Shown here: one piece after another, positions 15,021 through 46,551 of the stretch | Numbering within the stretch: position 1 is the stretch's first letter | Layout: the number at the start of each line of letters is the position of its first letter | NCBI GenBank assembly: GCA_905221605.1 | Contig: CAJNDS010002525.1 | Location: 269,001 to 333,000 of the forward strand | DNA: 64,000 bases | Reading direction: 5' to 3' | Source of the DNA: Symbiodinium natans | Taxonomy: Eukaryota; Sar; Dinophyceae; Suessiales; Symbiodiniaceae | The notes under the pieces: model-generated | What the model saw: the letters and a program-made list of their open reading frames with translations, nothing else | The model's database searches: none | Told to the model about the DNA's origin: nothing | Translations under genes and position numbers: made by a program

Positions 15021-15513
15021 AAAAATATGTAAAAGGGGGTTTCACAGGCTAAGGCTTCAGGGTTATATCGCTACCCACTTGCCCCCCAGCTCTGCTTTTT
15101 CTTGACCCTGCCCCCTTATTTAGTTCTATGTTCTTTCGCTACCTGTTGCATTTCCTAAGCCCAGTTTCCCCGTATTTCCCGCCGAATTTTTAGCCCCAAC
15201 TTTTTACCATCCCCTCATTCGTTTTCTCTCGTTTCCCGCCTTATCCATTATCCATAGGGGATTCTAAGGACAAGCTACCTCATTCATTCCGCAAAACCTA
15301 CAAATAACAACACCCCTAAAATTTAATCTATCCACCTTATGCGTTCCTATATTCTTAAAGTCCTTCCCATATGCTTGTTTGAATGTTTGTTGTTGTTATG
15401 ATTTATAGCAACAATAAACCTAATTTCTTCCCCATATCTCCCCCTTCTTCGTTTCAGTCTTTTCCCAACTTCTCAAGCTTCTGGGGCTTCCCGTGTTATA
15501 GTTAGTCCTTTTG
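15021..15513 (+). repeat. Left terminal inverted repeat, 493 bp
   Basis: Starts AAAAATATGTAAAAGG and ends GTTAGTCCTTTTG. Its reverse complement is at 46059-46551 with the same length; I find only two adjacent mismatches (ATATGCTTG here against ATATCATTG in the partner). Non-coding. Near-identity of the arms implies recent integration or homogenisation. Confidence 0.95.
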
Positions 15514-15554
15514 TTGTAAGTTTTATGAAATACAGCAACCCATAGATTTTTTAA

Positions 15555-16364
15555 TTAAGAGCCTCCTGATTGAACACTTGAACGCCTTGAACTCGTTCTG
15601 CTTCTTATATACTCAATGGTTTCTTGACTTCTACGAGAACTAACAACGCTTTGAGGCGGCGATGGTTCATCAACATATTCAATAGTCCTATCACTCCGCA
15701 CAGAACTTTGAACTGTTTCAGGTGGAGATGAATGAATGTATTCGCTTAATGCTTCTTCTTCAACGGGCAATAATGCACTTCTGTTCGAACTTCTACGAGA
15801 ACTTGATGATTCCGATGAAGGCTCATAAGATTTTTTAACATTCATAGGCAAACTGTTATCACTCTCTTCGCTCTTTTGTTGTTCAAAAGGTGTTTCACGA
15901 TCTAAATCATCTTCCTCAATTTGTTGCCTTCTGTTTCGCATTTCTTCTCTTTCTTCTTTGAACTCATCATCTCCAAACATGACATCATAAACTCTTCGCA
16001 TTACTGACTTTTTCTGTGGTTGTTCGCGTTCTCTTTCCCCGTCGCGTTCCTTTTCACTTATCTTTACGCTCTCTTCGCTTTCAATCTCGGGTTCTTCTTT
16101 AACTTCTTCTTCTGGTGTTCTCATACTTTCGCTTTCTGTTATGCTTGGCGTTTCATTGAATACATCTGTTTGCGTTCCCTTCTCTGGGTTCTCATTTAAT
16201 AATATTGTCTTCCTATCATATTTCCCTAAATCAAAATCATCAAAATCGACCTCATCTAATAATATCCCTTGTTGTGTTCTTCTTTGTCGTTCTGGTAATA
16301 TTCTTAATCTGCTTGTTCTCGCTTCTCGTTCAATTTGTTCAAAAGTCGGGCGTAACCGTAACAT
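15555..16364 (-). CDS. Putative virion-associated protein with LRPT N-terminal motif
   Basis: 269 residues, start ATG at 16364. I do not recognise a family. The N-terminus reads MLRLRPTFEQIERE; the rest is highly charged and Ser/Glu/Arg-rich, and looks disordered, with SSSRRSSNRS and SRRSSVQS-type clusters near the C-terminus. The adjacent 259-residue protein carries a similar LRPTYDEL near its own start. It is the outermost gene beside the left terminal repeat and the last of a five-gene minus-strand run ending upstream in the minor capsid gene, so a structural or core-associated role is inferred. An ATCTA promoter-like core lies 16 nt before the ATG. Confidence 0.75.
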   Translation of the reverse strand: MLRLRPTFEQIEREARTSRLRILPERQRRTQQGILLDEVDFDDFDLGKYDRKTILLNENPEKGTQTDVFNETPSITESESMRTPEEEVKEEPEIESEESVKISEKERDGEREREQPQKKSVMRRVYDVMFGDDEFKEEREEMRNRRQQIEEDDLDRETPFEQQKSEESDNSLPMNVKKSYEPSSESSSSRRSSNRSALLPVEEEALSEYIHSSPPETVQSSVRSDRTIEYVDEPSPPQSVVSSRRSQETIEYIRSRTSSRRSSVQSGGS

Positions 16365-16455
16365 ATAATATAAAATAAGATAGATTTTGTTAATTTATTT
16401 TAGATAAATTAAGAAATTCTTCAATTTGAAAAATTGAGCAATTTGTTTTATATGC

Positions 16456-17235
16456 TCAAACTGGTAAAAAAGATTTTGCTATTGCTGTTGCTCCTGCTTT
16501 TGCTAATGTTTCTACTCCTGCTTTTGCTCCACTCACTAATATGTCTTTTGCTGTGCTTGATGAACTTGTTGAAGGTTGTATTTCTGTTGTTGGGGTTTGT
16601 TTGCCTCTAATTCTTTTTGATACTTTGCTTAGTCTAACTCCTCTCGCATCTCTTGAAGGTGGCACACTTTCTAACGGTGGCATTTCATCGTCATCATCTT
16701 CTTCTAATTCATCTTCTAAAATTACGCCGTCCGGTATTTCTTGGTCGCCCACTTCTCTTAATTCACTACTTGCTTCATTGGCTGTTGATGATGACGTATT
16801 CCTAATAAATTGGTTGTGTCGTTCTAATTCGGCTCGTATTGCGTCAATCTGTTCTATGGCTAAACTTGGCACTTCACTTTCCGAAGGCGTTGAACCTAAA
16901 TCTAAAAATGGTGTTGTTGCACCACTTGGCATTGATGAACTTACTGATGTCTGGGCGTTTAGCATTCCTACCGATGTCCCTCTTGCTATTGCCGTTTGTC
17001 TCAGTTGTGTTTGTCTCATTTCTTCTTTTAATTTGTCTTCTTCTTGTTTCTTCAACCCCAAAAAATCAACATTATCTAATTGACTACCGAACTGATTATT
17101 TCTAAATAATGTTGCTCTTCTGTCAATTATTTTCTCTATTGGTGGTCTGTTAGGGTCGCCTTGGCTTTCAATCATACCGACTAACTCATCATACGTCGGA
17201 CGTAATTTTAATTCAGATTTTAACGTTTTAATCAT
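16456..17235 (-). CDS. Putative virion-associated protein, LRPT motif and glycine/alanine C-terminus
   Basis: 259 residues, ATG at 17235. Near the N-terminus is KLRPTYDELVGMIESQ, similar to the start of the neighbouring 269-residue protein. The middle is acidic (EDELEEDDDDEMPPLE), then basic (SKRIRGKQT), and the tail is small and hydrophobic (SGAKAGVETLAKAGATAIAK, then SFLPV), which could be amphipathic or membrane-active. I do not recognise a family. Position in the virion block and ATCTAA 13 nt before the ATG suggest a late, structural role. A membrane-lytic or capsid-binding tail is one speculative reading of the C-terminus. Confidence 0.75.
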   Translation of the reverse strand: MIKTLKSELKLRPTYDELVGMIESQGDPNRPPIEKIIDRRATLFRNNQFGSQLDNVDFLGLKKQEEDKLKEEMRQTQLRQTAIARGTSVGMLNAQTSVSSSMPSGATTPFLDLGSTPSESEVPSLAIEQIDAIRAELERHNQFIRNTSSSTANEASSELREVGDQEIPDGVILEDELEEDDDDEMPPLESVPPSRDARGVRLSKVSKRIRGKQTPTTEIQPSTSSSSTAKDILVSGAKAGVETLAKAGATAIAKSFLPV

Positions 17236-17254: not shown

Positions 17255-17575
17255 TTAAATTATTTCTTTCATTATAGTTTTTAATTCATCTTGGCGTTTC
17301 ATCAGTTCCTCTTTCGTTCTTACTGGCATTGATGGTCTCTCTAATTGTCTATTGATATCATCTAACTGGCCTTGATATAGCGATTGCTTCTGATGTTTTA
17401 TCCAATCGTTCCTTAACGCTACGTTCTTAGCTCTGTTTTCCGCTTCTTCTATTCTTAACTTCATGTCTTCGAGTTCTTTCTTCCGACTTGCTACTCCGAT
17501 TGATTCTTCTAAATCATAGTATTGTTCTACCATAGGCATACGTCTCATCTCTGGTTTGCTCTTAAAAATGCTCAT
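17255..17575 (-). CDS. Small coiled-coil protein of the virion block
   Basis: 106 residues, ATG at 17575. Almost entirely predicted-helical, charged sequence (KELEDMKLRIEEAENRAKN, then QLDDINRQLERP), so a coiled coil is likely. The N-terminus MSIFKSKPEMRRMPMVEQYY is loosely like the LRPTYDEL starts of the two downstream proteins. Function not recognised. Co-oriented with the minor capsid gene; TATCTA lies 14 nt before its start, and its stop overlaps the promoter-like motif of the next gene. Confidence 0.7.
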   Translation of the reverse strand: MSIFKSKPEMRRMPMVEQYYDLEESIGVASRKKELEDMKLRIEEAENRAKNVALRNDWIKHQKQSLYQGQLDDINRQLERPSMPVRTKEELMKRQDELKTIMKEII

Positions 17576-17613: not shown

Positions 17614-18228
17614 TTAAAACATGCTTGTTTTAAACCTTGCTATTTTCTCGGCTTTCTCTTGTTGCTTCAATTTCTTCATTTCGTTGTATGACTGTTGTAA
17701 TAGCTCGCTTGCTGTTAATTGTCGCTCTGGCTGTTTCATTACGACGGGTTGTTTTGGTATTGCTTTAGTTTTGACGCTCGGCTGAGCCTCGCGTGCATTC
17801 GCGACTTCAATTTCTTCGCTATGTTGCATTATTTCGTTTTCTTTGTTTTGATATTTGCTTTTCATTTCTTCCTCTATTTCTTTTCTCATCTGTTCCTTCA
17901 GTTTAGACCCATACGAGTTTTTCTGTTTATTAACGGGCAATGTTTCCGAAGGCTGACCTTTACAATTTCTCGGATGTGAATGTTTTAAGCTCTTGGGTAA
18001 CATCTTTTTATCACAGTCGGGACAATTTACCATCTCTACGACCTTTACTGTTCTCGGTAGTTTTTTCGCCGTTGCTTTTGGTTTCGGTTTCTCTTCCGCT
18101 TCTTCTTGCTTTGCTTCCTCTTGTTTAATTTCTTGTGGTTCGGTCGCTTCTTCAATAATATTTTCAACCACCTTTTCATTTGCTTCTTCATTTTGACTTT
18201 CTTGAACTTCATTATTAATCGTTTCCAT
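17614..18228 (-). CDS. C2HC zinc-finger protein with charged linkers
   Basis: 204 residues, ATG at 18228. A Glu-rich N-terminal third is followed by a basic KPKPKATAKKLPRTVK segment and one finger, CPDCDKKMLPKSLKHSHPRNC, whose Cys-x2-Cys-x12-His-x4-Cys spacing suggests zinc binding. The remainder is charged and helical. Similar single-finger proteins occur in Polinton-like viruses and large DNA viruses, but no specific role is assigned. It sits directly downstream of the minor capsid gene and has TTTCTA 10 nt before the ATG. Confidence 0.75.
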   Translation of the reverse strand: METINNEVQESQNEEANEKVVENIIEEATEPQEIKQEEAKQEEAEEKPKPKATAKKLPRTVKVVEMVNCPDCDKKMLPKSLKHSHPRNCKGQPSETLPVNKQKNSYGSKLKEQMRKEIEEEMKSKYQNKENEIMQHSEEIEVANAREAQPSVKTKAIPKQPVVMKQPERQLTASELLQQSYNEMKKLKQQEKAEKIARFKTSMF

Positions 18229-20044: not shown

Positions 20045-21487
20045 ATGGAAACGTTCGCACCCGAAGATATCCTTATTGATAATTTAAGCTTTAAATTAAA
20101 CAAAGGTAGTTCATACATTCAAGACCGTCGTTCTGTGTCATTCTGGCCGACTGGTTCAAATATCTATAAAAGCAATAGCGGTAATCGTGTATTAAAATTT
20201 TCATTAAACGGCGAAGACAACACATGGTTAGACCCTCAATCAGTTCGCATTTTCTTTACATTACAAAACTTAGACCTTGGCGATTATGATAATAAACTTC
20301 GTCCATTATCACCCGCTTATTCTTTCTTCAGACGAATGCGAATTATTGCTGGTAATCAAGTTGTTGAAGACTTTGATAATTATAACCGAGTTCATCATAT
20401 GTTCTCTAAAATGATGTCTGCAGGAGCACGAAAAGACGAAGCAAACGAAAGTTTCGGATATAGATATGATGACGAAGTAAGAACATTATATGCCGACGGA
20501 GTAACACCCGAATTAAAATATGAAGTTAACGGTTATAATTGCCAAGGATTTAAAAACAAAATGACAGTTTGTTTCAAACCATTATGTGGCCTCTTTTCAC
20601 AATTTAAATATTTACCATTAAAATATATGGGAAACTTAACAATCGAATTAGAACTCGTAACGAATGCAACTGATTGTATTATTGATTATAATGATGATAC
20701 CGCGAACACTGCCGTAGGCAATCGTTTCGTAAATAATGTTAATCCCGCAGACGCGGGACAAGAAAACGCAAGATACAGAAATACAAGTATTCAATGGGAA
20801 ATTAATAACGCTCGTGTTGTTTGCGATGTCTGCACCTTAGATAATAACTTAAATAATGAATATGTTAAGCATCTTTTAGAAGGTAAAGGATTACCCATTA
20901 CTTATACCACTTATATTACTCAATCACAAGCATTAACAGGAAACGACAATTTTAGCGTTCAAGTTATTCGTTCAGTATCTAAATTAGTAGCATCGTTTGT
21001 TACATTTTACAAGAGCGGAGACCCAAGCACAGGTTTCGAATACTGCGATAAAGAGTTCTGTCGCTTCTATCATCCACAACAGGCATCGTTTCCCGCGAAC
21101 GAAGGAATATATGACCCCGATTTGGATTTAGAATTTCAGATTCAATTAGGTTCTAAATTGTATCCAGAATACCCTTGTGCTTCGATTACCGAGTGCTACT
21201 ATCATTTACGAAAGGCATTAAACTTACCAATGTTTCATCAACATTCATTATCAATTGATTTTAAACAATATCGCGATAGACAATTTGTCTTTGCTTTCTC
21301 CTTTGAAAAAGTGCCGGATAGTAGTTATACAGGAATTAATACACGTGCAGGGCAACAAATGTTATTAAAAGTTAAACCCGCCAATGCTTCAATAACTAAT
21401 ACGAATATGCCAGATAGTGTTTATTTAACCCTATTGAGTGAGCAAATTTTAGAAATTAAGGATTTAGGGCTCAAGGTATTCGATTAG
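20045..21487 (+). CDS. Major capsid protein (double jelly-roll type)
   Basis: 480 residues, ATG at 20045. Features of PLV major capsid proteins include an N-terminal segment with VSFWPTGSNIY, a strand with VRIFFTLQNLDL, the LSPAYSFFRRMRIIAGNQVV block, and an aromatic-rich C-terminal jelly roll with LSIDFKQYRDRQFVFAFSF. Length suits a compact double jelly roll forming pseudo-hexameric capsomers. It is followed by three 14-bp tandem repeats that include its own stop codon. The 3' part (residues 216-480) is repeated after the N gap at 29780-30577. Confidence 0.85.
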   Translation: METFAPEDILIDNLSFKLNKGSSYIQDRRSVSFWPTGSNIYKSNSGNRVLKFSLNGEDNTWLDPQSVRIFFTLQNLDLGDYDNKLRPLSPAYSFFRRMRIIAGNQVVEDFDNYNRVHHMFSKMMSAGARKDEANESFGYRYDDEVRTLYADGVTPELKYEVNGYNCQGFKNKMTVCFKPLCGLFSQFKYLPLKYMGNLTIELELVTNATDCIIDYNDDTANTAVGNRFVNNVNPADAGQENARYRNTSIQWEINNARVVCDVCTLDNNLNNEYVKHLLEGKGLPITYTTYITQSQALTGNDNFSVQVIRSVSKLVASFVTFYKSGDPSTGFEYCDKEFCRFYHPQQASFPANEGIYDPDLDLEFQIQLGSKLYPEYPCASITECYYHLRKALNLPMFHQHSLSIDFKQYRDRQFVFAFSFEKVPDSSYTGINTRAGQQMLLKVKPANASITNTNMPDSVYLTLLSEQILEIKDLGLKVFD

Positions 21488-21517
21488 GTGTATTCGATTA
21501 GGTGTATTCGATTAGGT
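21476..21517 (+). repeat. Three tandem 14-bp units overlapping the capsid stop codon
   Basis: GTATTCGATTAGGT three times in a row. The first unit encodes the last codons and the TAG stop (21485-21487) of the major capsid gene; the other two are 3' untranslated. The second assembled copy is at 30566-30607. Confidence 0.9.
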
Positions 21518-21580
21518 GTATTGAAAAACTATATAAAATGTTATAAAGAAATAATACTTTATAATATATTATAGGATAGT

Positions 21581-22411
21581 ATGCCGAGAAAACAAATAGA
21601 TTATAGCAATACTCATTTTTACAAAATTGTTTGTAAGGATACAAACATAACCGAGTGTTATGTAGGTCATACGACAGATTTTGTTAAACGGAGATACGCG
21701 CACAAAAACATTTGCTACAAAGAAGAAGACAGACATTATAACATATACTTGTATGAGTTTATTCGTGAAAATGGAGGGTGGGATAATTGGGAGATGATTA
21801 ATATTGAAACAAGAAGTTGTAGAGACAGTTTAGAAGCAAAGACAATTGAGCGCGAACTCACCGAACAATTGAAAGCAAACTTAAACAGAGTTAAAGCAAT
21901 TGAAACAAAAGAAGAAAAATCAGTAAGAAAGAAAATCTGGAGAGACAATAACCCAGAATATAACAAACAATATTACCAAGACCATAAAGAAGAACATAAC
22001 GCTCGCTCTAAACAATACCGAGAAGACCACAAAGAAGAAATTCAAGAATGGAAAAAGAAGCATTATGAAGAAAACAAAGAAGACATTTTAACAAAACAAA
22101 AAGAAAAGTATGAAGAGAACAAAGAAATAATTTTAGAAAGAAACAAGAAATGGAGAGATGAACACCGAGAAGAACAAAAAGAATACCATAAGCAATACAG
22201 AGAAAACAACAAGGAAAAGGTAGCAGAAAGAAAAAAGAAATGTGTAGAGAAAAAGAAAGACGAGTATTTACAGAAGAAGCGTGACTATTACCAAAGTAAA
22301 AAAGAAAAGCAATTATGTGAATGTGGTTCAATGGTTAGTTCATGTGAGAAATCAAGACACCTTAAATCACAAAAACATCAAACATATCTAAAACAACAAC
22401 AAGAAATTTAA
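21581..22411 (+). CDS. GIY-YIG endonuclease with charged repeats and C-terminal zinc finger
   Basis: 276 residues, ATG at 21581. A GIY-YIG-type nuclease core occupies roughly residues 10-100: HFYKIVCKD then CYVGHT, Arg in FVKRRYAHK, and the acidic ERELTEQL helix. Residues about 115-245 are Lys/Glu-rich imperfect repeats of NKEYNKQYxxxHKEE type, probably a long helix. The tail CECGSMVSSCEKSRHLKSQKH is a putative zinc finger. Such enzymes act as homing or mobile-element nucleases in Polintons and large DNA viruses. It sits between capsid and fibre genes and lacks the TCTA promoter motif. Residue 72 is Met here and Ile in the second assembled copy (30671-31501). Confidence 0.8.
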   Translation: MPRKQIDYSNTHFYKIVCKDTNITECYVGHTTDFVKRRYAHKNICYKEEDRHYNIYLYEFIRENGGWDNWEMINIETRSCRDSLEAKTIERELTEQLKANLNRVKAIETKEEKSVRKKIWRDNNPEYNKQYYQDHKEEHNARSKQYREDHKEEIQEWKKKHYEENKEDILTKQKEKYEENKEIILERNKKWRDEHREEQKEYHKQYRENNKEKVAERKKKCVEKKKDEYLQKKRDYYQSKKEKQLCECGSMVSSCEKSRHLKSQKHQTYLKQQQEI

Positions 22412-22450
22412 TATAACATTCTAATAATAATTTATCTAATTATTATTATA

Positions 22451-24808
22451 ATGGTTCTTACTTTAAACAACACAAATACACTTACAGCAGATAATGTTAT
22501 TGTTGGTGGAACAGACATTTCTTTGTTATATGCCACAAAAACAGAATTAGGAGACATCAACACCGCGAATTCTTCAAACATACAAGCAAACACCGACTCT
22601 ATAGCAGTTTTAAACACAAAACAACTACAAAACTTTCATAATATCAGTTCTTTAACGCACTTATTAGATACGGAGTATCAAACAAACACCACCTTAACGA
22701 GCACATTTTACAATAAAACAGAAATAGACTCAACCTTTACGAATTATTACACACAAACTCAAATAGACACAAATTTATCAACAAATTACCAGACCAACAC
22801 CCAATTAGGAACAAATTATTATAATAAAACCGAAGTAGACGGATTAATAGCAGGAGGAGGAGGAGACACTTATACAACAACAGAAGTAGATAATTTACTT
22901 GCTTTAAGAGTTCCAGTAAGTGATTTTACCAATAGATTTAGTGCTAATCCTATTATTGATTGTTCTGCCCCTACTGTTATTCATAGTGGATTAACATTAA
23001 ATAATTCAACAATAAATATTTCCCCAGTAGCAGGATTATTATTTAGTAATCAAACCGGAGGAGGTGATAAAGTTTTAGCAGAGTTTAAGAACGCTACGAG
23101 TTATATAACTTTGCAAGGGGATAAGATATTTTGCAATAATACATCAGACGATGCAATTAAACAACTTGATTTAACTAATAATAATGCAGGGTATAAAATG
23201 AGTGGGAAAATAGAAACGCCAACAGGTGGTTTAGTAGTGGAAAATACAGCAGACGCTAATTTATCATTTACCGTTAGAAATACTGATAATTATATTACTT
23301 TTAATAATGATAATATCGATTGTTATAATTCAGTTGGCGATACTGGTAGAATATTAAACTTAAATAATAATGCTAATCAATATGTTAAATCACATTCCTT
23401 ATTAGTAGATACAGGAACGGAAACATTAACAAGCGGGTATAATTTGGATGTTGTTGATAGTGCGATTATTAGACAGAATTTAAAAGTTGATGGTAATTTA
23501 GATTTAACAAATGATTTAAATTTTGACGGTGAAAATTGTAATATATCTAATAACTCAGGACTTACATTTTATAAAGATACAACAGATGCGTCGAATGTTA
23601 TGACTGTAAAAAATGCACAAGGATATTTAAAATTTAATTCATTTAATATTAATGCTTATAACACAAGCAACGACAGTTCATCATTGCTTTTATTAAATAC
23701 TGCTAACGGTAATGGTGTTTATTGTTTAAGTTTAGGCATCGGAGCAATTCAAGGAGCAAATAAACTAAATGTAAGTGGCGGGAATGCTAATTTTGGTGGC
23801 ACTTCATCATTTCAAAACATAGCAACTTTTAATAGTGATATTTATATTAATAATTCAGGGAGAATATTTCAAAGAGCAGACGTTAATAATTCATTAAATG
23901 TAATATCAACAGAAGAAATTAATTTTTCATTACAATCAAATAGAACAACCGACCCAACAACAGGAACAATAGCACTACAATTAAACGACACTAACGGAAT
24001 TACTATTAATAGAGCAGTTACAAATAACTTAACTTTTAATAGTATTGGTAATATCGTTGGTGAGGCAGATGTTATTAGTTGGGGGCGCTTTATGTTTCAA
24101 AATAGTAGTGAGTTTAAAGAAGTATTGGACGGACAATATAAATTGTTTGTTCGAAATGGAGACACGTTAGGCGACATTAATTTAACTGTTGGATTAGAAA
24201 GTAGCACACCAGAAATTAAAATAACTGATGGAAAAGTAAAAATGAATAACTTAGAAATAACACAAGAGACAATAAGCACCGTAGACCAAATACAATTTTT
24301 AAATACTGACGCAGGAGGTGAATATGCATTTTATTTTGGTAGTGTTTCAGTATCGAATGATGTGTTTTCAATTTCACCAGGTGGCATTCTCGTTAATGGA
24401 GATATTGAATATACAGGGTCTTTAATTCCAAGTTCCGATAAACGTTTGAAAAAAGATATTAAGGAACTTAACCAAAAAAAAGCAGTGGAATTAGTTAAAT
24501 ACATTGTTCCAAAAACATATCATTTTATTGACGACAGACAAAAGGGTAAATCATGTTGTGGTTTTATTGCTAATGACTTTTTAAGTAAAAAAGTCCCAGA
24601 TGAATGGCAAAATATAGTTAAAGAAGGCAAAGACGGATATTTAAAGTTTGATTATACTTCTTGTGTTCCTATTTTATGGAGTGCATTACAAGCAACAATA
24701 AATGAAGTAGAAGAATTAAAAGATTTAGTAAAAACAATGAAAAAGGAAATGGCAACGATGAAAGGAGAAATAACAAAGTTGAAAAAGAAAATTAAGGATG
24801 ATGATTAA
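22451..24808 (+). CDS. Trimeric fibre-like protein with C-terminal S74 self-cleaving chaperone
   Basis: 785 residues, ATG at 22451. The N-terminal 160 residues hold repeated FYNKTEID, YYTQTQID and YYNKTEVD units typical of phage and viral fibre shafts. A long Asn/Ser/Thr-rich beta region follows. The C-terminus begins SSDKRLKKDIKELN at residue 661, matching the peptidase S74 intramolecular chaperone, which trimerises fibres and then cuts itself off using a Ser and Lys dyad; a terminal coiled coil (VKTMKKEMATMKGEITKLKK) closes the protein. A host-binding spike role is inferred. TATCTAA lies 11 nt before the ATG. It converges on the packaging ATPase gene. Confidence 0.82.
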   Translation: MVLTLNNTNTLTADNVIVGGTDISLLYATKTELGDINTANSSNIQANTDSIAVLNTKQLQNFHNISSLTHLLDTEYQTNTTLTSTFYNKTEIDSTFTNYYTQTQIDTNLSTNYQTNTQLGTNYYNKTEVDGLIAGGGGDTYTTTEVDNLLALRVPVSDFTNRFSANPIIDCSAPTVIHSGLTLNNSTINISPVAGLLFSNQTGGGDKVLAEFKNATSYITLQGDKIFCNNTSDDAIKQLDLTNNNAGYKMSGKIETPTGGLVVENTADANLSFTVRNTDNYITFNNDNIDCYNSVGDTGRILNLNNNANQYVKSHSLLVDTGTETLTSGYNLDVVDSAIIRQNLKVDGNLDLTNDLNFDGENCNISNNSGLTFYKDTTDASNVMTVKNAQGYLKFNSFNINAYNTSNDSSSLLLLNTANGNGVYCLSLGIGAIQGANKLNVSGGNANFGGTSSFQNIATFNSDIYINNSGRIFQRADVNNSLNVISTEEINFSLQSNRTTDPTTGTIALQLNDTNGITINRAVTNNLTFNSIGNIVGEADVISWGRFMFQNSSEFKEVLDGQYKLFVRNGDTLGDINLTVGLESSTPEIKITDGKVKMNNLEITQETISTVDQIQFLNTDAGGEYAFYFGSVSVSNDVFSISPGGILVNGDIEYTGSLIPSSDKRLKKDIKELNQKKAVELVKYIVPKTYHFIDDRQKGKSCCGFIANDFLSKKVPDEWQNIVKEGKDGYLKFDYTSCVPILWSALQATINEVEELKDLVKTMKKEMATMKGEITKLKKKIKDDD

Positions 24809-24838
24809 TAATATTATAGCAAAATAATATTATTAATC
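24803..24838. terminator. Convergent-gene hairpin between fibre and ATPase genes
   Basis: Perfect 14-bp arms GATTAATAATATTA and TAATATTATTAATC with an 8-nt loop TAGCAAAA. The hairpin contains the stop codons of both converging genes (TAA at 24806, TTA at 24833). A bidirectional 3' end signal is inferred. Second copy at 33893-33928. Confidence 0.65.
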
Positions 24839-36367: not shown

Positions 36368-36404
36368 GATGTGATTTAATATTATTTGATAATATTAAAA
36401 CTCA

Positions 36405-36782: not shown

Positions 36783-36851
36783 GATTAAGGTTGTAACACG
36801 CTTTACCTTTAAAACGTGTTAAACTTAATTATTAATGTAACCTATTAATAG

Positions 36852-37412
36852 TTAGGTTTGTTTGAGAATACTTTTGTTTGTTTTACATGCCAATATACTT
36901 TCAGCTTGTTTTTCCATTATATCAAATATTTCTTCATGAATATCATGTTTGAAGAACTTATAATCGTGAGGCTTACATCTTGTATTCTTCTTAAATAAAT
37001 ATATGTCTATGACAATTTCAAGTATTATATAAACTTCACTATACATCTTGTTGTTGTAAAAGAATAAATCACCGAAACAAGTAGCACGTTTGTTAAAATA
37101 TTCAGCGCAAAAGTGCAAGTCATAAAAATTATCATATATGGTTTTAATGTGCTCCATTGTATTAGTATTGATATATTTACGAAAAAGATTTGGGTCTACT
37201 CTAAAATCAAAACAACAACGTTTTATTTCTTTCTGGGTTAAGTCTAAGGGATACATCCGAGCAAACAGATATAGGTCATCATAAACATCATTGTCAATAA
37301 TATCAGAACAAGTTAGGAATTCCTTAATATTGTCATTGACATTATCAGGAAAGCACAACTCAAGGTTTTTTAACTTTTGACAGTTAGGACAATTGTAAAT
37401 ACAAGCCTTCAT
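36852..37412 (-). CDS. Cys-rich unknown protein (second assembled copy)
   Basis: Same 186-residue protein as 27762-28322, start ATG at 37412. Confidence 0.58.
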   Translation of the reverse strand: MKACIYNCPNCQKLKNLELCFPDNVNDNIKEFLTCSDIIDNDVYDDLYLFARMYPLDLTQKEIKRCCFDFRVDPNLFRKYINTNTMEHIKTIYDNFYDLHFCAEYFNKRATCFGDLFFYNNKMYSEVYIILEIVIDIYLFKKNTRCKPHDYKFFKHDIHEEIFDIMEKQAESILACKTNKSILKQT

Positions 37413-37493
37413 CTCACTAACATAATAAGTCGTCAAGTCTTTAAGTCGTTTTTAAGTCCTTTTTTATCATTGCTTCTTTTCTCTACTCTTTAT

Positions 37494-38426: not shown

Positions 38427-38449
38427 AACATCTTAAAGACAAGAAAAGA

Positions 38450-39082
38450 ATGATAAGTAGAGATATGACAAGATATGAGAACGGTAAAATTTATAAAATA
38501 GTTGATAATGGCTATAACATGTGTTATATTGGTAGCACTTGCGAAAGTTTAAGTCAAAGAATGGCAAGACATAGACATCATTATAATTCATATTTGAAGG
38601 GAAACCATGGAAAAACACGTTCGTTCGATATATTTGACACTTATGACATTTTAAATTGTAAAATAGAATTAGTGGAGAATTATCCATGTAATAGCAAAGA
38701 TGAGTTACTACGACGAGAAGGTTTTCACATACAAAATACTGAGTGTATTAACAAACATATAGCAGGAAGAACACAACAAGAATTCAGAGATGCTACAAAG
38801 GAACATAAACGTGAAACAGACAAAGCTTATAGAGAAAACAACAAGGAGAAGCTTAAAGCATACAGAGAGGAGCGAAAGGAACATTATCAAGAATATAATA
38901 GAAATTGGAAGCAGGACAACAAAGAACACGTTCAGAAATACAATAGTGAGTGGCGACAGAACAACAAGCAAAAAGTGTCTGAAAAGGCAACGTGTGAGAA
39001 ATGCGGGGCAATTGTAAGAAAATACGACATGAAGACACACCAACAGACTAAGAGATGTATGCAACGCGGGAAAACGGCTTAA
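38450..39082 (+). CDS. GIY-YIG endonuclease with C-terminal zinc finger
   Basis: 210 residues, ATG at 38450 (an in-frame ATG five codons later, before TRYENGKIYKI, is an alternative). The core is GKIYKIV then MCYIGST, followed by RMARHRHHY and the Glu of RREGFHIQ. A Lys/Glu-rich linker leads to CEKCGAIVRKYDMKTHQQTK with a final Cys, a putative zinc finger. Shorter than, but built like, the other GIY-YIG gene at 21581. CTTAAAGACAAGAA sits 5 nt before the start, an early-type motif. Probably a mobile-element nuclease; its precise role is not known. Confidence 0.8.
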   Translation: MISRDMTRYENGKIYKIVDNGYNMCYIGSTCESLSQRMARHRHHYNSYLKGNHGKTRSFDIFDTYDILNCKIELVENYPCNSKDELLRREGFHIQNTECINKHIAGRTQQEFRDATKEHKRETDKAYRENNKEKLKAYREERKEHYQEYNRNWKQDNKEHVQKYNSEWRQNNKQKVSEKATCEKCGAIVRKYDMKTHQQTKRCMQRGKTA

Positions 39083-39100
39083 AGAGTAGAAGCCTTATAG
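39076..39100 (+). promoter_or_regulatory. Early-type promoter motif before the 131-residue gene
   Basis: GGCTTAAAGAGTAGAAGCC followed by TTATAG, 9 nt before the ATG at 39110. It closely matches the stretch before the polymerase gene (CTTAAAGACTTGAAGCC then TTATAG) and overlaps the stop codon of the GIY-YIG gene. Confidence 0.5.
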
Positions 39101-39505: not shown

Positions 39506-39531
39506 ATATTGATAATTGTTTTTATCAATAT
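39506..39531. terminator. Convergent-gene hairpin before the polymerase stop
   Basis: Arms ATATTGATA and TATCAATAT with an 8-nt loop, between the zinc-finger gene stop (39505) and the polymerase stop (39541). A T-rich stretch follows on the plus strand. Confidence 0.6.
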
Positions 39532-39540: not shown

Positions 39541-42500
39541 CTACTTTATGCTAAAAAACCCATATGGCAAACTTTCTATGTTATTTATGTAATACCTTTT
39601 ATTATCATAACTGCTTAGAGCTTGTTTTGTTTGTTTTATGCTATATATCTGATGATTTTTTGAACGTATGCTGTTAAATGTTACGCTGTTATCTATACAT
39701 TCATTGTTTAAGGTGTCTTCGTATCTTTTATAATTGAATTCTTTCTTAACTTTATGTTTTACTATGCCTTTGCTTTTCTTTTCTTCATTCTGTTCATTAT
39801 GTATCTTGAATGCATAAGATTTAGGCTTTAATCCTATGAAGCTTGTTATTATCTTGCCGTCGCATTCATCTTTGAATTTTCCTAATACCTTCTTATTTTT
39901 TGGGTCATAGCATTTATGATTTTTATCATAGCCGCTAAAGTCCATGTGATTACTTATTTCTTGGAAGTCTTCATATATATCATCTGTTTTAGTATGTATA
40001 ACGAAGCTGTCAGTATCAGTATATATTAATCTTATGTTGTCTTCGTATTTCTTTTTTAGAACGTCATAATAAAACGAATACATATGTAACTTAGATAAGT
40101 CTAAGATACACATACCCGCATATATAGGCTTATTTAATAATACTGTGTGTTTTAGCTTTTCAACTCCTACGAGATTTTCATTAATTATATGTCTATGTTT
40201 AAATGTAGGACTATTAACACATTTTTGATAACGTTGAGGTGTATTAACTAATTCAAAATCTATATGTTCTCTTACGTTTTCCATTGTTTTACCGTAGCAA
40301 GCGTTATTCATTAATTTATACATATCTTTTTCAAAATCTGATGTTGCCTGTTTTCTTTTGTTAGTGTTAAAATCAATCCATGGTTTTAGCCATGCCTTTT
40401 GTTTGAAAGATATTGTTCTCCAAACACGCTTTATTTTCAAGCCTTGTTTCAGATAATACTGTAAAATCTTAACGTGACATACATATCTATTTTTATCATA
40501 TACATTTAAGATTAGCTTGTTTGTTTTCTCATCTGTAGGCTCTTTATTGTGATTATATGATTTATATATTCCCTTCTGTGTTTCCGATAACATGTCTGCG
40601 GTAACATTCATTATTTGCGGTGCTAATGGGTAATCCTTATGTTTCTCATGGACTTCGTCGGGATACTCTAAATCAACATCTACAATAAAGCCGAGAGAAC
40701 CGTCAGTATAATTAATTATTTCTTCTTCGGTTAAGGGCTTATCTTCAAATTTAATATCTTTGTATGGCAATTTTTGACACATGGCTAAACCATATAAGTT
40801 ATTAGCATCTAAGTAATTTATATATGATGATTCCTTAGATTTATCATAATCTTCACCCATGTATTTATTGTTTGCGTCTGCTTTTCTTAATGATGTTTGA
40901 CACATGCCACCTCGAAGTCCTTTTTCAAACATTTTATAAATCTCTTCATCTTGAACCAGTTGTAAGCAAACACCTGTTTTTAAAAGCATCGCGTCCCAAC
41001 TAAAATTAGGTAATGTGTAATAATGAGCTGGGTCTAAGCCGTAATCTTCTAAACATTTAGTTCTAAAGTTTTCAAAGACGTCTGTTAATAAAAACACATC
41101 TGTTTGCAAATATAAGTCGTGGTATTCTCCCAAGTCTTTTATGTTAAAATGGTTCCATATGTGTTTTGCTCTGTCATATTCTTTTTGTTCTATGTTCTGT
41201 TCCGTAAGCTGACTATAAAAATCTTCAATTGATGGTAGGGATGTTTCATTAAATTTCTTAAAATCTGTGAAGTAATCATATGGATAAACGCCCTTATCCG
41301 TTAATAAATCTAAATCCTCATCTGATGTTATGTATTTGCTTGTTCTGCTGAATTTGAAGTTTTCCGTCCAATTTTCGCGCTTATCATTTTCTTCATATTT
41401 TGTTAGCTTAACAAGCTTATCTAAGGAAGAAGATAAAAAACTGAACGTATCTTTAAACTCAAGCTCTTTAAGACAAAAGGTTATGAACTTTTCGCTGTTT
41501 TGTGCAATTACGTTTATTTCTTCTTTTTCCGTGTCTAACTTATCCAAGTTGGATATAATTAAGTGCGCGTCATAATTCTTAAGATTATGAAAGAAAACTG
41601 GGATTTTGAAATCTTTAAAACAAAAATCAAGATTACATTTTAAGTGTGCTGGACCTCTATATTGTCCTGTAAAATGACAATGGTCTCTTACCTTCTTTTT
41701 TCCGTCCTTTTTGTTATCAAAACAACCGTTACAAATATGACACCTTTTGGCTTCGTCGTATTCTTTTTGTTCTTTGTCTGTTAAGTCATTCATTGATAAG
41801 GGATGTTTTATTACATACATGATTTCTTCCCTTATCTCATTCATGGTTTCGCAGAATTTGTTCATGCAATCTTCACCTCTGTATAAGTAAGGCTTACATT
41901 CATCGGTTATTGAATTAACAACGTTTAACATAAAACCCGATGGTTTATGTTCCTGATATGTCCCTTTTATACCTTCATCTGTTTGTGTTGTTAAACATTC
42001 AAAATCACCGTATATAACATATGGACATTTAAGCTTTTTATAGTGGTTCTTGAAAAATGTTTTATCCTTTTCTGGCATCTCTACGTTTTGAATGTTATTT
42101 GCCATACATCCTTTTATAGTATGTTGCGTTAGTAAGTTTTCTTTCTGAAAGCCTTTCTGACAAAATTGACAATGAAACAGTTTTGTTTTATGTTTGTTTG
42201 TCTGAGAACTCATTAATCTCGAATAATCCTTTATCAAAACATAATGACTTTTATCATCCTTTTCTAAGCGTAACAGATTTACATGACATGTTGGTCTTAA
42301 CTTTTTTGTTATTCTGTCTGCTCTTATCTTTTGTTTATCCTCGTCTATAACATAAACATTTATTGAAATACTACCTTCATTAATCTCTTCAAAATAATCT
42401 ATATCATCATTAGAAGCTGGAAAATTAACATCATCCCATTTTAAGAAAGAGTCATTGTTTTTCAACTTATTATAATGATACATTCTTTCGGGATTGTGAT

Positions 42501-43284
42501 TTTTAAAGATATTGTAAAAATAACATTGAACGCAATATTTGAAACAATAATCGTCATCGTTTTTAATGTTGATACATGCCTTCTTTAATGATATCCACTT
42601 AGGTAATTCAATATAAGACCCTGCTCTTGTAGGGTCATATTTGTCATAATGGATTGTTATTTTCATTATCTTTTTTATTGTTAATCCTGAACGTTTTAAT
42701 TGTGAGTTTTCTATTTGTTCCTCAATGTCGCCCGCCATGTTGTTTATGGCTTTGTTTAAATCTTCTTCGTTTAATATGTTGTATCTTCTGCTTCTTATTG
42801 TGTGTCTTACTTCATCCTCTTCTGGATGATTAAATGCGACATCCACTTCTATTAACACTTTCATTTGTTTTTCTTTTTTCAAGTATTCGGTTAATCTTTC
42901 TTTTTGGTATTTTAAATAAGATAAACCACGATAACCGTTCAAATTAATATTAGTAATCGAATATGTGTTCGCGTATCTTTTTAGTGCTTGTCTTTCGTCT
43001 GTGATTTTTGCTTTTCTTCTTATTGCGTATGATTTAAGGGCTTGTCTCGTTTTTGCTTGTTGTCCTGCTCTGTGTAGTATCTCATAACGTTTAAAACCTT
43101 GAGTTTTAGCAATTGAATTCAATTTGTTGGTTAATTTTGTTGAGAAGGGTTGTTCTTTATTATATCTGTATTCATTACCATTAATCACTACTTTTTTTAA
43201 TTCTTTATTACCTCTCTTCTTTATTTCACCGATATTACTACTCAAAACATACTTCATCACGTCGTTTAAACGGGGTTCTACCAT
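39541..43284 (-). CDS. polB: Protein-primed-type family B DNA polymerase
   Basis: 1,247 residues, ATG at 43284. Exonuclease motifs: GDFEC (425-430), HNLKNYDAH (566-574), YLQTDVFLLTDVF (725-737). Polymerase motifs: YLDANNLYG (824-832), KLMNNACYGKT (990-1000), YTDTDS (1088-1093). Before them are a C2H2-like finger (HCQFCQKGF to about 393) and, between the first two exonuclease motifs, an HNH-like Cys/His block (CHICNGC, then VRDHCHFTGQYRG and HLKCN, 515-551), as in other Polinton polymerases. Insertions between motifs suit protein priming on a linear genome with terminal repeats. No stop or frameshift is present. The 5' spacer carries an early-type motif. Confidence 0.93.
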   Translation of the reverse strand: MVEPRLNDVMKYVLSSNIGEIKKRGNKELKKVVINGNEYRYNKEQPFSTKLTNKLNSIAKTQGFKRYEILHRAGQQAKTRQALKSYAIRRKAKITDERQALKRYANTYSITNINLNGYRGLSYLKYQKERLTEYLKKEKQMKVLIEVDVAFNHPEEDEVRHTIRSRRYNILNEEDLNKAINNMAGDIEEQIENSQLKRSGLTIKKIMKITIHYDKYDPTRAGSYIELPKWISLKKACINIKNDDDYCFKYCVQCYFYNIFKNHNPERMYHYNKLKNNDSFLKWDDVNFPASNDDIDYFEEINEGSISINVYVIDEDKQKIRADRITKKLRPTCHVNLLRLEKDDKSHYVLIKDYSRLMSSQTNKHKTKLFHCQFCQKGFQKENLLTQHTIKGCMANNIQNVEMPEKDKTFFKNHYKKLKCPYVIYGDFECLTTQTDEGIKGTYQEHKPSGFMLNVVNSITDECKPYLYRGEDCMNKFCETMNEIREEIMYVIKHPLSMNDLTDKEQKEYDEAKRCHICNGCFDNKKDGKKKVRDHCHFTGQYRGPAHLKCNLDFCFKDFKIPVFFHNLKNYDAHLIISNLDKLDTEKEEINVIAQNSEKFITFCLKELEFKDTFSFLSSSLDKLVKLTKYEENDKRENWTENFKFSRTSKYITSDEDLDLLTDKGVYPYDYFTDFKKFNETSLPSIEDFYSQLTEQNIEQKEYDRAKHIWNHFNIKDLGEYHDLYLQTDVFLLTDVFENFRTKCLEDYGLDPAHYYTLPNFSWDAMLLKTGVCLQLVQDEEIYKMFEKGLRGGMCQTSLRKADANNKYMGEDYDKSKESSYINYLDANNLYGLAMCQKLPYKDIKFEDKPLTEEEIINYTDGSLGFIVDVDLEYPDEVHEKHKDYPLAPQIMNVTADMLSETQKGIYKSYNHNKEPTDEKTNKLILNVYDKNRYVCHVKILQYYLKQGLKIKRVWRTISFKQKAWLKPWIDFNTNKRKQATSDFEKDMYKLMNNACYGKTMENVREHIDFELVNTPQRYQKCVNSPTFKHRHIINENLVGVEKLKHTVLLNKPIYAGMCILDLSKLHMYSFYYDVLKKKYEDNIRLIYTDTDSFVIHTKTDDIYEDFQEISNHMDFSGYDKNHKCYDPKNKKVLGKFKDECDGKIITSFIGLKPKSYAFKIHNEQNEEKKSKGIVKHKVKKEFNYKRYEDTLNNECIDNSVTFNSIRSKNHQIYSIKQTKQALSSYDNKRYYINNIESLPYGFFSIK

Positions 43285-43296: not shown

Positions 43297-43320
43297 TATA
43301 AGGCTTCAAGTCTTTAAGTC
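43297..43320 (-). promoter_or_regulatory. Early-type promoter motif of the polymerase gene
   Basis: On the minus strand GACTTAAAGACTTGAAGCC then TTATA, ending about 12 nt before the polymerase ATG at 43284. Its first 15 bases are identical to the spacer at 28343-28357 and the whole resembles 39076-39100. Confidence 0.55.
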
Positions 43321-44311
43321 CTTTTGGGTGGTGTTTTTTCTGGGTTTGGGTGTGGTTTGGGCTGGGCTTGGCGCGGCTTGGGTGGTGCTGGTGGTCGGCG
43401 GTTAGGGCGACTGCCCGATAAATAAAGCATACTAAAACCCTAAACACCGCCAAAAAAGGGGCATTGAATATTTTAATAAAACGAAAACAAAAGAATGTGA
43501 AATGCCCCTTTTTTAAAACATAGTCCTAACCTAACATAAACCACAACAACCCTTCTAAACCGAAAGAACTAAACCACAACAACCCTAAAAAGACTAAACC
43601 CTAAAACTCTAAGCGCGTCCCAATGAGAGGAAGAGCCGACACTTTGGAGACTTCTGCGTCTCAATGATAGGAATAGCCGACGTTGTCCGCGTTTTTAGGG
43701 TTTAGGGGATTAGGGCTTAGGGTCTAAACCCTAAACTGAAACCCTAAACTAAAAACCCTAAACTAAAACCCTAACCCAAAGGAAGGGCGCACCGTTGCGT
43801 CGAACTCGTCGTGGTGAGTGTTCTGCATGTAGACGTCCACCTGTCATTTTCTTAGTCAAAGTTTTCTTTTCTTATTCAATATCCCTCGGGCGAAGTTGGG
43901 GATTTATGATTTTTTGGTGTAGGGTCTATGATATATTTTATTTTGTGATTTTGGGTGTATTTTATATGGGAATTTGTGGGTATTTTGGGCGAATATTGCT
44001 TTCGGGTCTTTTTTATGCATATGACTACTTGATATTTGTTATTTTGGGGTTTTGGGGGGTTTAGGATGTAGGATAGAAAGGATTCTGGGATTTGGTGATG
44101 CTTCTATTTGGGAATTTGTGGGTATTTTCGGGTGGATATTATTTTTGGGTCTGTTTTGTAAATATTGTATATCTTAGGTTTAGGGGTTTAGGGATTATAA
44201 TGCAGAGCTTTGATGTGACACCTGCTTTTTGTGTCTGCGGTCGCACATCTCAGTCCCTTGCTGTCATCAACTGCATAGACGACAACAATCCAAGCACCGT
44301 TCCCGTGTAGC
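43321..44311. other. Host-like segment inside the element, first part
   Basis: Composition changes just upstream of the polymerase gene: G-rich text, AAACCCTAAA-type repeats, a 14-bp inverted repeat, and paired direct repeats (GCGTCCCAATGAGAGGAAGA / GCGTCTCAATGATAGGAATA, and GGGAATTTGTGGGTATTTT twice at about 43969 and 44109). Short open frames here are repeat translations and unconvincing. It looks like host DNA carried within the element. Confidence 0.6.
43452..43514. other. 14-bp inverted repeat
   Basis: AAAAAAGGGGCATT (43452-43465) and AATGCCCCTTTTTT (43501-43514) around a 35-nt AT-rich loop. Located between the polymerase promoter and the host-like segment; could be a transcription end signal or a small element's ends. 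Confidence 0.55.
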
Positions 44312-44609
44312 GAAGTCCCCCTACTTTGGGCAGTAAAGTCCCCCTACTTTGGGCGGTAAAGTCCCCCTACTTTGGGCGGTAAAGTCCCCCTACTTTGGGC
44401 GGTAAAGTCCCCCTACTTTGGGCGGTAAAGTCCCCCTACTTTGGGCGGTAAAGTCCCCCTACTTTGGGCGGTAAAGTCCCCCTACTTTGGGCGGTAAAGT
44501 CCCCCTACTTTGGGCGGTAAAGTCCCCCTACTTTGGGCGGTAAAGTCCCCCTACTTTGGGCGGTAAAGTCCCCCTACTTTGGGCGGTAAAGTCCCCTATT
44601 TCGGGTGGT
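44312..44609. repeat. Thirteen-copy 23-bp tandem repeat
   Basis: Unit AAAGTCCCCCTACTTTGGGC followed by GGT. The first copy has GA and CAGT variants, the next eleven look identical, and the last (44588-44609) is diverged and one base short. Each unit contains AAAGT and ACTTT, able to form a tiny stem. It lies just after the 3' end of the ubiquitin-like gene. Confidence 0.95.
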
Positions 44610-44653
44610 CTGACTGGCAACGGTGGCGAAATCGCGTAAAGGGAACTACGCGC

Positions 44654-45841
44654 TCAGAACGCGACACACGAAGCATCGTTGGTCTTGAAGTGCTCATCTG
44701 CCGGGGTTGAGATTTCACGTTTGATAAGCTCTTTCTTCACGTCTTCCATGAAGCCGACAGCATTGATGACCATTTCCCCGTTCCTGAAGACGCCATAGTG
44801 GTCGATGAACATCTCGAACAGTTGGATGGTCATGTCCCCCTGCAATGCCTCGATAGCCTTGATGCAGTCACCCATTGAGCACATCTTCGGGAAGACAACG
44901 GACAAGGCTCTGTGAAGCCTCTCCTCGCTTGTGCCTCTGCGCTTGCCCTCCGAAACCTTCAGAATGTCAAGGAGCAACTGGAGGTTCTCCACCGACAACT
45001 GTTTCAATGCCAACTCGATGAGCGGGAAGTTCACGTTGGACTGCAACAACTTTATCTCTGCCATGGACTGACGCATCTCAGTGAGGTAGGTCTGGAAGCT
45101 CTCGGGGAAGTCACACGTGGGCGTAAAGACAACCTTGTAGTCATCGTTGATTTTCTCTTTCAAAGCCGCCTTCGCAGCATCTGGTTTCAGATGCGACTTG
45201 ATGGTTCGACGGAAGCCTCCTCCAACTCCGCGAATCGAAGCGTAGACCACCGAGCCGTCCACGATACCAACCTCGCGCAAGCTTTTTCTGGCGTGGTAGG
45301 TCTCAAAGAGATTCACGTCGCCGAAGGTGAACATGATGTCCTTGCCCTGCTTCTGGGAAATCGCGGCATCCTCAAAGAAGCGGTCGCGAAGGTGACCAAT
45401 GCCACGCATCAACGAAATGCTCATGGAGTATGTCCGCCCCTGAAACACGATGTTCACCGTCACCTTTGCCTCACGGCTCTCCTTCGTCTTCGCCTTCTTC
45501 TCCTCGATTTTCTGCTCCTTCCTCTCTTTGGTCTCCTCCTTCTTAATCTCGCGAAGGTGCTTGCGAAGCTCCATGCTGACGATGGTCTGCTTTGCCTTCA
45601 ACGTCTCCATCTGCTTGTCGTAGCGTTTTTTCAAGGTCTCCTTCTCATCGAGGCTCATCTCCTTCACTGCCTTGGTGAGTGCATTCTCCTCGTCTGTGTT
45701 GAAGTCGTCGCTCTCCTCGTCGTCAGTGACATCGGGGGAAATGGTAGGAATTGGGTTCTTCTGGTCTTCTGGGTCATCACCACTGCCGCCCGCGGAAGCA
45801 CTCATGGAAAGCTCGGGGACAATCTCGGACAAAGTCGCCAT
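44654..45841 (-). CDS. Ubiquitin-like-domain protein, putative captured host gene
   Basis: 395 residues from the ATG at 45841. Residues 1-60 are acidic and disordered; 60-125 form a long charged helix (KKEETKERKEQKIEEKKAKT); about 126-208 resemble a ubiquitin-like beta-grasp (VTVNIVFQGRTYSMSIS, then VVYASIRGVGGG), ending in Gly residues reminiscent of a ubiquitin C-terminus; the remainder is a helical domain that I do not recognise. Base composition and codon choice are GC-rich, unlike the AT-rich viral genes. It lies inside the right terminal repeat, so it is cargo. A role in modifying host protein turnover is speculative; it could also be a passenger. Confidence 0.7.
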   Translation of the reverse strand: MATLSEIVPELSMSASAGGSGDDPEDQKNPIPTISPDVTDDEESDDFNTDEENALTKAVKEMSLDEKETLKKRYDKQMETLKAKQTIVSMELRKHLREIKKEETKERKEQKIEEKKAKTKESREAKVTVNIVFQGRTYSMSISLMRGIGHLRDRFFEDAAISQKQGKDIMFTFGDVNLFETYHARKSLREVGIVDGSVVYASIRGVGGGFRRTIKSHLKPDAAKAALKEKINDDYKVVFTPTCDFPESFQTYLTEMRQSMAEIKLLQSNVNFPLIELALKQLSVENLQLLLDILKVSEGKRRGTSEERLHRALSVVFPKMCSMGDCIKAIEALQGDMTIQLFEMFIDHYGVFRNGEMVINAVGFMEDVKKELIKREISTPADEHFKTNDASCVAF

Positions 45842-46058
45842 GCTCAAGTGGTAGAAGCAAAGCGAACGAAAGAATGCGGGGATTGTGCTTTGAAAGCCGA
45901 ATTGCTACCATTGTAAAGCAAATGTGCTCATGCTCACGAGTTGCTTGTCAATGTCAGAACTGAAAGCATCGACTGACTGAAACGTTAAGACATGCCAGAC
46001 GTGCCTCTTCGAAGTTGTTGTAGTCGTTGAGCGTCTTCTTCAAATATGAAACCTTTAC

Positions 46059-46551
46059 CAAAAGGACTAACTATAACACGGGAAGCCCCAGAAGCTTGAG
46101 AAGTTGGGAAAAGACTGAAACGAAGAAGGGGGAGATATGGGGAAGAAATTAGGTTTATTGTTGCTATAAATCATAACAACAACAAACATTCAAACAATGA
46201 TATGGGAAGGACTTTAAGAATATAGGAACGCATAAGGTGGATAGATTAAATTTTAGGGGTGTTGTTATTTGTAGGTTTTGCGGAATGAATGAGGTAGCTT
46301 GTCCTTAGAATCCCCTATGGATAATGGATAAGGCGGGAAACGAGAGAAAACGAATGAGGGGATGGTAAAAAGTTGGGGCTAAAAATTCGGCGGGAAATAC
46401 GGGGAAACTGGGCTTAGGAAATGCAACAGGTAGCGAAAGAACATAGAACTAAATAAGGGGGCAGGGTCAAGAAAAAGCAGAGCTGGGGGGCAAGTGGGTA
46501 GCGATATAACCCTGAAGCCTTAGCCTGTGAAACCCCCTTTTACATATTTTT
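46059..46551 (-). repeat. Right terminal inverted repeat, 493 bp
   Basis: Reverse complement of 15021-15513, from CAAAAGGACTAAC to CATATTTTT. Equal length, two adjacent mismatches found. The host G tract begins directly after one T. Confidence 0.95.

Follow-up and report, generated by a model that had tools for sequence, protein, structure and literature searches.

The window analysed here, 64,000 nucleotides of contig CAJNDS010002525.1 from Symbiodinium natans, holds between positions 15021 and 46551 an AT-rich element flanked by long terminal inverted repeats (TIRs). With somewhat better than even confidence we read it as a latent, giant-virus-inducible Polinton-like provirus satellite of about 22.4 kb, which lies on two overlapping contigs and has a captured host-like gene aboard. 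Judged from the sequence, the new features would be a TCTA promoter class on both presumed capsid genes, the packaging ATPase and the fibre gene, a second 21-bp box, and hairpins at the ends of convergent genes.

Putative promoter classes and transcript ends

Nine open reading frames (ORFs) of the element have an AT-rich TCTA box 10–17 nt before the ATG: the genes for the minor-capsid-type protein (mCP), the major capsid protein (MCP), the fibre and the ATPase, and the ORFs designated by their first coordinate as 15555, 16456, 17255, 17614 and 25828 (Table 1). At a spacing of 8–20 nt the word is found before 10 of 20 ORFs, against a Markov-shuffle mean of 1.29 (maximum 6 in 5000 shuffles), and internal Met codons, taken as a control, show it at the same spacing in 2 of 95 cases. 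A test of all 4-mers placed TCTA at the top with a z of 8.2, the best z of any word reaching no more than 8.12 in 1000 shuffles. Of the 19 TCTAs within 100 nt upstream, 9 fall in the 10–19 nt bin; for the antisense strand the figure is 2 of 9. The mavirus motif and the late promoter of Cafeteria roenbergensis virus (CroV) are likewise TCTA with AT-rich flanks, as described in part of PMC8547959, and the relevant part of PMC10945749 reports that CroV reactivated only the type of endogenous virophage (EMALE) carrying the TCTA motif. A further TCTA 10 nt before the ATG of the cargo gene (see below) stands in a GC-rich setting and was taken as chance.

The second putative class is defined by a 21-bp box (the CTTAAAGACTTGAAGCCTTAT box), shared with 0–2 mismatches by the genes for the family B DNA polymerase (PolB), ORF 39110 and ORF 27762. 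Its core, CTTAAAGA, is placed 24–26 nt before the ATG in these three genes and 10 nt before it in the second GIY-YIG gene. A degenerate 21-mer built from these sites matches the window at 4 places (3 with the assembly overlap counted once) and none of 100 shuffles. Seven IMG/VR stretches with the same pattern encode no relative of 17 window proteins and were dismissed as chance matches.

The single-copy interior (18,668 bp, with 1,746 bp between genes) was searched for perfect hairpins whose arms measure 9 bp or more and whose loops measure 3–14. Eight were found: six are fully intergenic, one spans the stop codons at which the fibre and ATPase genes converge, and another overlaps the 3' end of ORF 17614. 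Seven are located within −30 to +90 relative to the 3' end of a gene, which is a generous span given the short gaps; the eighth, at 26403–26432, is placed only in front of an ORF. Each of the three convergent gene pairs has a perfect hairpin at its junction, and 10 of 20 ORFs have one near their 3' end. Sixteen Sputnik genes are reported to terminate at hairpin signals (PMC6723459, in part).

Hallmark proteins

The frames of the MCP, mCP-type protein, ATPase, integrase and PolB are open and intact, as stated in an earlier sequence-only reading of the window. The same reading had assigned the element to the Polinton-like viruses (PLVs), an identity that is supported by the MCP fold, the A32-type ATPase, the rve integrase, the PolB motifs and the long TIRs. 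The structure model of the MCP shows a double-jelly-roll fold, closer to that of Paramecium bursaria chlorella virus 1 (PBCV-1) than to those of mavirus or Sputnik. The integrase scores 30.2 bits against PF00665, just under the curated cut-off of 32.6, and matches NF033577 with an E of 7.9e-10, far under that family's cut-off; D75, D139 and E171 are its presumed catalytic residues.

PolB shows six motifs, which by the names and meaning that we presume for them are ExoI–III and PolA–C, in order over residues 427–1088 and with a wide PolA/B/C spacing. No PolB profile was found in Pfam up to E 10, the assignment being made by motifs alone. Between ExoI and ExoII, residues 505–552 form an inserted endonuclease-VII-like zinc motif (PF02945, E 0.0018, under cut-off), and the sole match of the protein in the phage collection was an endonuclease VII. 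The mCP belongs to a conserved family of 331 proteins; its AlphaFold2 model is poor (pLDDT, the predicted local distance difference test, 43) and too weak to judge a single jelly roll, and its role is presumed from the earlier reading, the gene position and a sequence pattern. Comparison by sequence of PolB, MCP, mCP and the cargo protein with solved structures yielded no match better than E 0.08.

Borders, size and assembly gap

The two TIRs pair at 491 of 493 bases, with mismatches only at 15373–15374, which confirms the two adjacent differences noticed earlier. The GC content is mostly 0.29–0.34 inside the element and about 0.50 outside, with a sharp step, and the ORFs inside are long and densely packed. 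TGGGGG is present at both outer edges, which is compatible with rve integration at one site; on the plus strand of the host flanks these bases stand at 39 out of 32,469 positions, and a comparable low-complexity match (GAGGG) in cryptophyte PLVs was judged spurious in the part of PMC12220804 concerned.

A closer inspection of the interior showed an assembly gap flanked by two copies of the same 8,990 bp, which differ at 21037, 21064, 21097, 21358, 21796 and 27075. The first four differences are synonymous in the MCP, and those at 21796 and 27075 change amino acids. The repeat starts within the MCP gene, ends within a nuclease gene and reaches exactly to the gap on both sides. Most simply, two contigs that stem from two haplotypes or two copies overlap here and were joined in the scaffold across a nominal gap, which implies an element size of 31,531 − 9,090 = 22,441 bp. 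Hence, of the earlier claim of a complete element at 15021–46551, the borders marked by the TIRs stand and the length of 31.5 kb does not. As the TIRs are on different contigs, completeness has to be inferred across the gap; it is likely that both belong to one continuous insertion. A 405-aa ORF at 29360–30577 was discarded as an artefact, its reading frame passing through the Ns. The case indicates that element lengths and calls of completeness in draft assemblies require a check for gaps.

Relatives, host and preservation

At a threshold of E 0.001, 618 relatives of the MCP and 331 of the mCP were found, the best 120 being listed for each, and both window proteins have the usual length of their families. 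Among the best 120 of the 331 mCP relatives are the protein of the window itself (P0123, on two contigs, the longest of 501,614 bp) and 10 others at 95–100% identity, with longest contigs of differing length; a single genome or sister assemblies may be their source. No relatives were found in IMG/VR by MCP, PolB, ATPase or integrase or by the MCP alignment, and none in prokaryote genomes by the MCP alignment. One relative, P0080, has the MCP fused straight into the S74 fibre end, by deletion, recombination or assembly error.

The element is of a known kind, and such elements are already known in dinoflagellates: the part of PMC10120064 (Bellas 2023) drawn on here counts 2,535 MCPs in Polarella, describes a cluster of MCPs from dinoflagellates and argues that many protist-integrated copies are intact. 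The earlier statement that few copies are this well preserved is doubtful in view of that source, of the relatives counted above and of the at least 10 near-identical mCP entries.

The GC content at third codon positions (GC3) is 0.19–0.36 in 12 viral ORFs versus 0.56–0.70 in three flank ORFs; the viral genes have thus not taken on the composition of the host. The flanks (1–15020 and 46552–64000) contain interstitial TTTAGGG/CCCTAAA arrays of 203 and 215 units. TTTAGGG is the reported dinoflagellate telomere repeat, and interstitial signals were rare in Karenia by fluorescence in situ hybridization (PMC6395649, in part). Together with the cargo relative Skav226489 described below, these arrays make the dinoflagellate genome proposed earlier a probable host. 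Polarella was weighed as the host and gained no support: its assembly has 46% GC and abundant TTG repeats (PMC7245778, in part), and the tandem-repeat listing for the window contains no TTG array.

Cargo segment

Between PolB and the right TIR lies a partly host-like segment, with a GC content of about 0.5 over 44201–45900 and of 0.30–0.38 at 43401–43600 and 43901–44200. TTTAGGG units number 10 in 43301–46045 (2,745 bp) versus 4 in the 28,280 bp of the AT-rich part. At E 0.001 the cargo protein has two relatives, P0121 (98% identical) and P0122 (46%, a EukProt gene labelled Skav226489, a label that we take to denote Fugacium kawagutii). P0121 is encoded on a 217,343-bp contig, and P0124, an mCP one residue off that of the window, is likewise on a 217,343-bp contig; each of the two copies of the cargo gene thus appears to have a nearly identical virus on its own contig. 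The cargo would be a captured host-like gene, and if mobile it would provide an example of such a virus carrying host genes.

Weak matches of the cargo protein were taken as chance: in Pfam (E 0.06 or above), in NCBIfam (E 0.0086) and, in its acidic/coiled N-terminal part, to the PADLOC models Cmr1 (E 0.0063) and TnsB (E 0.02). The sequence at 43317 matches the inner edge of the right TIR, inverted, over 11 bp. That this marks the border of a nested transposon was considered and dropped, since the arm at 43317 adjoins the putative PolB promoter box.

Proposed mechanism and alternative explanations

In the mechanism that we propose, the rve integrase would insert the provirus in the host genome, possibly with a 6-bp duplication; the element's own PolB, of the protein-primed type, would copy it from the long TIRs; and a double-jelly-roll capsid bearing a phage-like S74 fibre would be built. 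Expression would follow two promoter classes, the CTTAAAGACTTGAAGCCTTAT-box set (PolB, ORF 39110 and ORF 27762) and the TCTA set of capsid, packaging and fibre genes, with hairpins ending the convergent pairs. A giant virus of the Imitervirales infecting the same cell would most likely supply the transcription machinery for the TCTA class, which would then be a late one; such an arrangement has been proposed for mavirus with CroV. Lysates of Karenia brevis, a dinoflagellate, have yielded Imitervirales as well as fragments of PLVs (PMC13037468, in part). From the observed features and their statistics we infer promoter function, helper dependence, cargo mobility and viability. The comparison suggests an element that may be virophage-like in its late expression; membership of Maveriviricetes is not claimed.

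Several points weigh against this mechanism. TCTA is only four bases in very AT-rich DNA, and both the word and the spacing range were picked by eye before testing, a choice for which the all-4-mer test allows as far as the word is concerned. The best 5-mer, ATCTA (z 7.9), falls inside the shuffle range (99% point 9.4), so it is the core of four bases, with its position, that carries the signal. The tenth TCTA match, at spacing 8 before the integrase gene, is poorer and looks like chance, and the lipase-like and first GIY-YIG ORFs have no TCTA box although they stand among capsid genes. Half of the ORFs (10 of 20), those for MCP, mCP and integrase included, show no hairpin of at least 9 bp near the 3' end, and no known early motif of a giant virus has been matched to the second box. 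The host has no known helper virus. Dinoflagellate Mavericks are described as less accessible and, in Breviolum, rich in 5-hydroxymethyluracil (5-hmU) (PMC11071213, in part), and the Oxyrrhis PLV as mostly silent (PMC12721341, in part).

The alternative that survives best, and to which we attach a sizeable though minor probability, is an ordinary dinoflagellate Polinton/Maverick that spreads within the nucleus under host transcription, its TCTA boxes and hairpins being conserved signals of its own with no relation to a giant virus. The element does encode its own integrase and polymerase, many relatives are located on large contigs, and the abundance of MCPs in Polarella (PMC10120064, in part) agrees with spread of this kind. 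Against it, the focus of AT-rich TCTA on the capsid and packaging set, together with the hairpin ends, matches what has been reported for CroV and mavirus and for Sputnik.

It is rather unlikely that the scaffold fuses halves of two separate insertions of one family, as might be suspected from the 10 other listed mCP entries at 95% identity or above and from the six differing sites of the overlap; the 6-bp duplication candidate agrees across the flanks, where those bases stand at 39 of 32,469 positions, yet it is of low complexity. A recent insertion that is now an inactive relic appears unlikely to a greater degree: integrated relatives are mostly silent in Oxyrrhis (PMC12721341, in part) and 5-hmU-marked in Breviolum (PMC11071213, in part), but here the frames are intact, the MCP and mCP have their usual length, the expected catalytic residues are present and the TIRs are alike at all but two positions. 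A real tandem duplication giving a true length of 31.5 kb is highly improbable: the six mismatches would be expected of a recent event, but both copies stop exactly at the 100-N gap, the repeat runs from inside one gene to inside another, and the element has the usual PLV size without it.

The preferred reading of a giant-virus-inducible provirus bears on whether the Polinton-like elements found in thousands in Polarella are transposons, relics or giant-virus satellites. If correct, the TCTA boxes and 3' hairpins predict the genes that are turned on, the base from which they are read and the kind of virus under which this happens. Activity as a virus or transposon, which the sequence-only reading had raised, would thereby acquire a concrete and testable mechanism. 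We propose more tentatively, and with less than even confidence, that dinoflagellate genomes hold an inducible antiviral reservoir of provirophage type, wired to a CroV-like late switch, outside the mavirus lineage and also moving host genes between loci.

Other genes and flanking DNA

The Pfam scan covered 17 of the 21 element ORFs and recognised no cysteine protease among them; such a protease is typical of most polintons (PMC12721341, in part). No RNA polymerase was recognised among the element ORFs. The window contains no tRNA, and Rfam gave no match at the gathering score.

Table 1. Features of the window and their positions (strand in the third column; a point where none applies)
Feature	Position	Strand	Remarks
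Candidate 6-bp target-site duplication, left (TGGGGG)	15015–15020	.	same 6 bases after right TIR; low complexity, weak
Left TIR	15021–15513	+	493 bp
ORF, 269 aa, no assigned function	15555–16364	-	TCTA box, spacing 16
ORF, 259 aa, no assigned function	16456–17235	-	TCTA box, spacing 14
ORF, 106 aa, no assigned function	17255–17575	-	TCTA box, spacing 14; outside family scan
ORF, 204 aa, no assigned function	17614–18228	-	TCTA box, spacing 10
mCP (minor-capsid-type protein), 278 aa	18259–19095	-	TCTA box, spacing 12
Possible lipase-like ORF, 213 aa	19140–19781	+	SHSLG motif only; no profile match, no TCTA box
MCP, 480 aa, double jelly roll	20045–21487	+	TCTA box, spacing 17
Overlap copy 1, 8,990 bp	20690–29679	.	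runs up to gap
GIY-YIG-like homing nuclease, 276 aa	21581–22411	+	25% identity to 38450 ORF, E 8.8e-10; no Pfam match, no TCTA box
Tail-fibre-like protein, 785 aa, C-terminal S74 chaperone	22451–24808	+	PF13884 E 1.1e-7; PHROG tail fibre E 5.1e-13; TCTA spacing 12
Perfect hairpin, 15-bp arms	24803–24838	.	convergent fibre/ATPase; 0/1000 shuffles
A32-type DNA-packaging ATPase, 264 aa	24833–25627	-	PF04665 E 2.7e-10, above cut-off; TCTA box, spacing 13
ORF, 114 aa, no assigned function	25828–26172	+	TCTA box, spacing 10
Perfect hairpin, 11-bp arms	27285–27309	.	between convergent ORFs; 0/1000 shuffles
ORF, 186 aa, no assigned function	27762–28322	-	second-class (putative early) box CTTAAAGACTTGACGACTTAT at 28335–28355 (-)
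rve (DDE) integrase, 310 aa	28404–29336	+	PF00665 E 5.5e-7; D75, D139, E171
Assembly gap, 100 N	29680–29779	.	read in sequence
Overlap copy 2	29780–38769	.	begins directly after gap; 6 mismatches to copy 1
GIY-YIG-like nuclease, 210 aa	38450–39082	+	PHROG homing endonuclease E 0.003; CTTAAAGA 10 nt 5' of ATG
ORF, 131 aa	39110–39505	+	second-class box at 39078–39098
Perfect hairpin, 10-bp arms	39506–39531	.	convergent ORF 39110/PolB; 3/1000 shuffles
PolB, protein-primed type, 1247 aa, endonuclease-VII-like insert	39541–43284	-	six ordered motifs
Second-class putative promoter box before PolB	43298–43318	-	shared 21-bp box
Partly host-like segment inside TIRs	43301–46058	.	composition, TTTAGGG units
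23-bp tandem repeat, 12.3 copies	44313–44596	.	tandem-repeat listing
Cargo gene, 395 aa, intact	44654–45841	-	GC3 0.74; ubiquitin-like stretch by eye only
Right TIR	46059–46551	-	493 bp
Candidate 6-bp target-site duplication, right (TGGGGG)	46552–46557	.	equals left copy

In the flanks, seven proteins gave no Pfam match. A 504-aa frame at 61340–62854 (minus strand), with no Pfam match, resembles by eye a reverse transcriptase of the YVDD type with an end like RNase H, and is perhaps a DIRS-like retroelement near the provirus. A dispersed repeat around AATCCCTATTAAGGACTGTTAGTATA is located at 14437–14509, 51169–51241 and 56603–56675, with one reference copy and two copies at 63% and 79%. In addition, a 103-bp direct repeat of 98% identity (60719–60821 versus 61105–61207) and a perfect 48-bp tandem pair (60790–60885) were observed.

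Comparison with known systems

The element combines features of several groups. The rve integrase and the long TIRs are those of Polintons/Mavericks, and the double-jelly-roll MCP and the A32-type packaging ATPase, with PF04665 above its cut-off, those of PLVs. A late promoter in common with a giant virus, as in virophages, may be represented by the CroV/mavirus motif. With mavirus and the endogenous mavirus-like elements it shares the rve integrase, PolB, the double-jelly-roll MCP and the TCTA box in AT-rich DNA.

The rve-type PLVs of cryptophytes (PMC12220804, in part) resemble it in the S74 fibre, the GIY-YIG nucleases and an rve integrase with 6-bp target-site duplications (TSDs), of which the window element has a candidate pair; promoter classes are not discussed in the main text of that paper, from which the word 'promoter' is absent. 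OmPLV of Oxyrrhis marina (PMC12721341, in part) is likewise an integrated dinoflagellate PLV, of about 25 kb, with low GC, an A32 ATPase and GIY-YIG. It has a tyrosine recombinase and a helicase–PolB fusion, and neither a recognised mCP nor a TSD, whereas the window element has an rve integrase and a PolB with no recognised helicase.

The Dino-group elements, such as the P. glacialis polinton (PMC10120064 and PMC12721341, both in part), share with it the probable host group, the capsid gene, an unfused PolB, TIRs and low GC. The PolB of the P. glacialis polinton spans about 940 codons by its printed coordinates, versus 1247 in the window element, and the portions of these two papers drawn on here describe neither promoter signals nor cargo. 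Compared by description only, the window element is likely a member of the Dino group.

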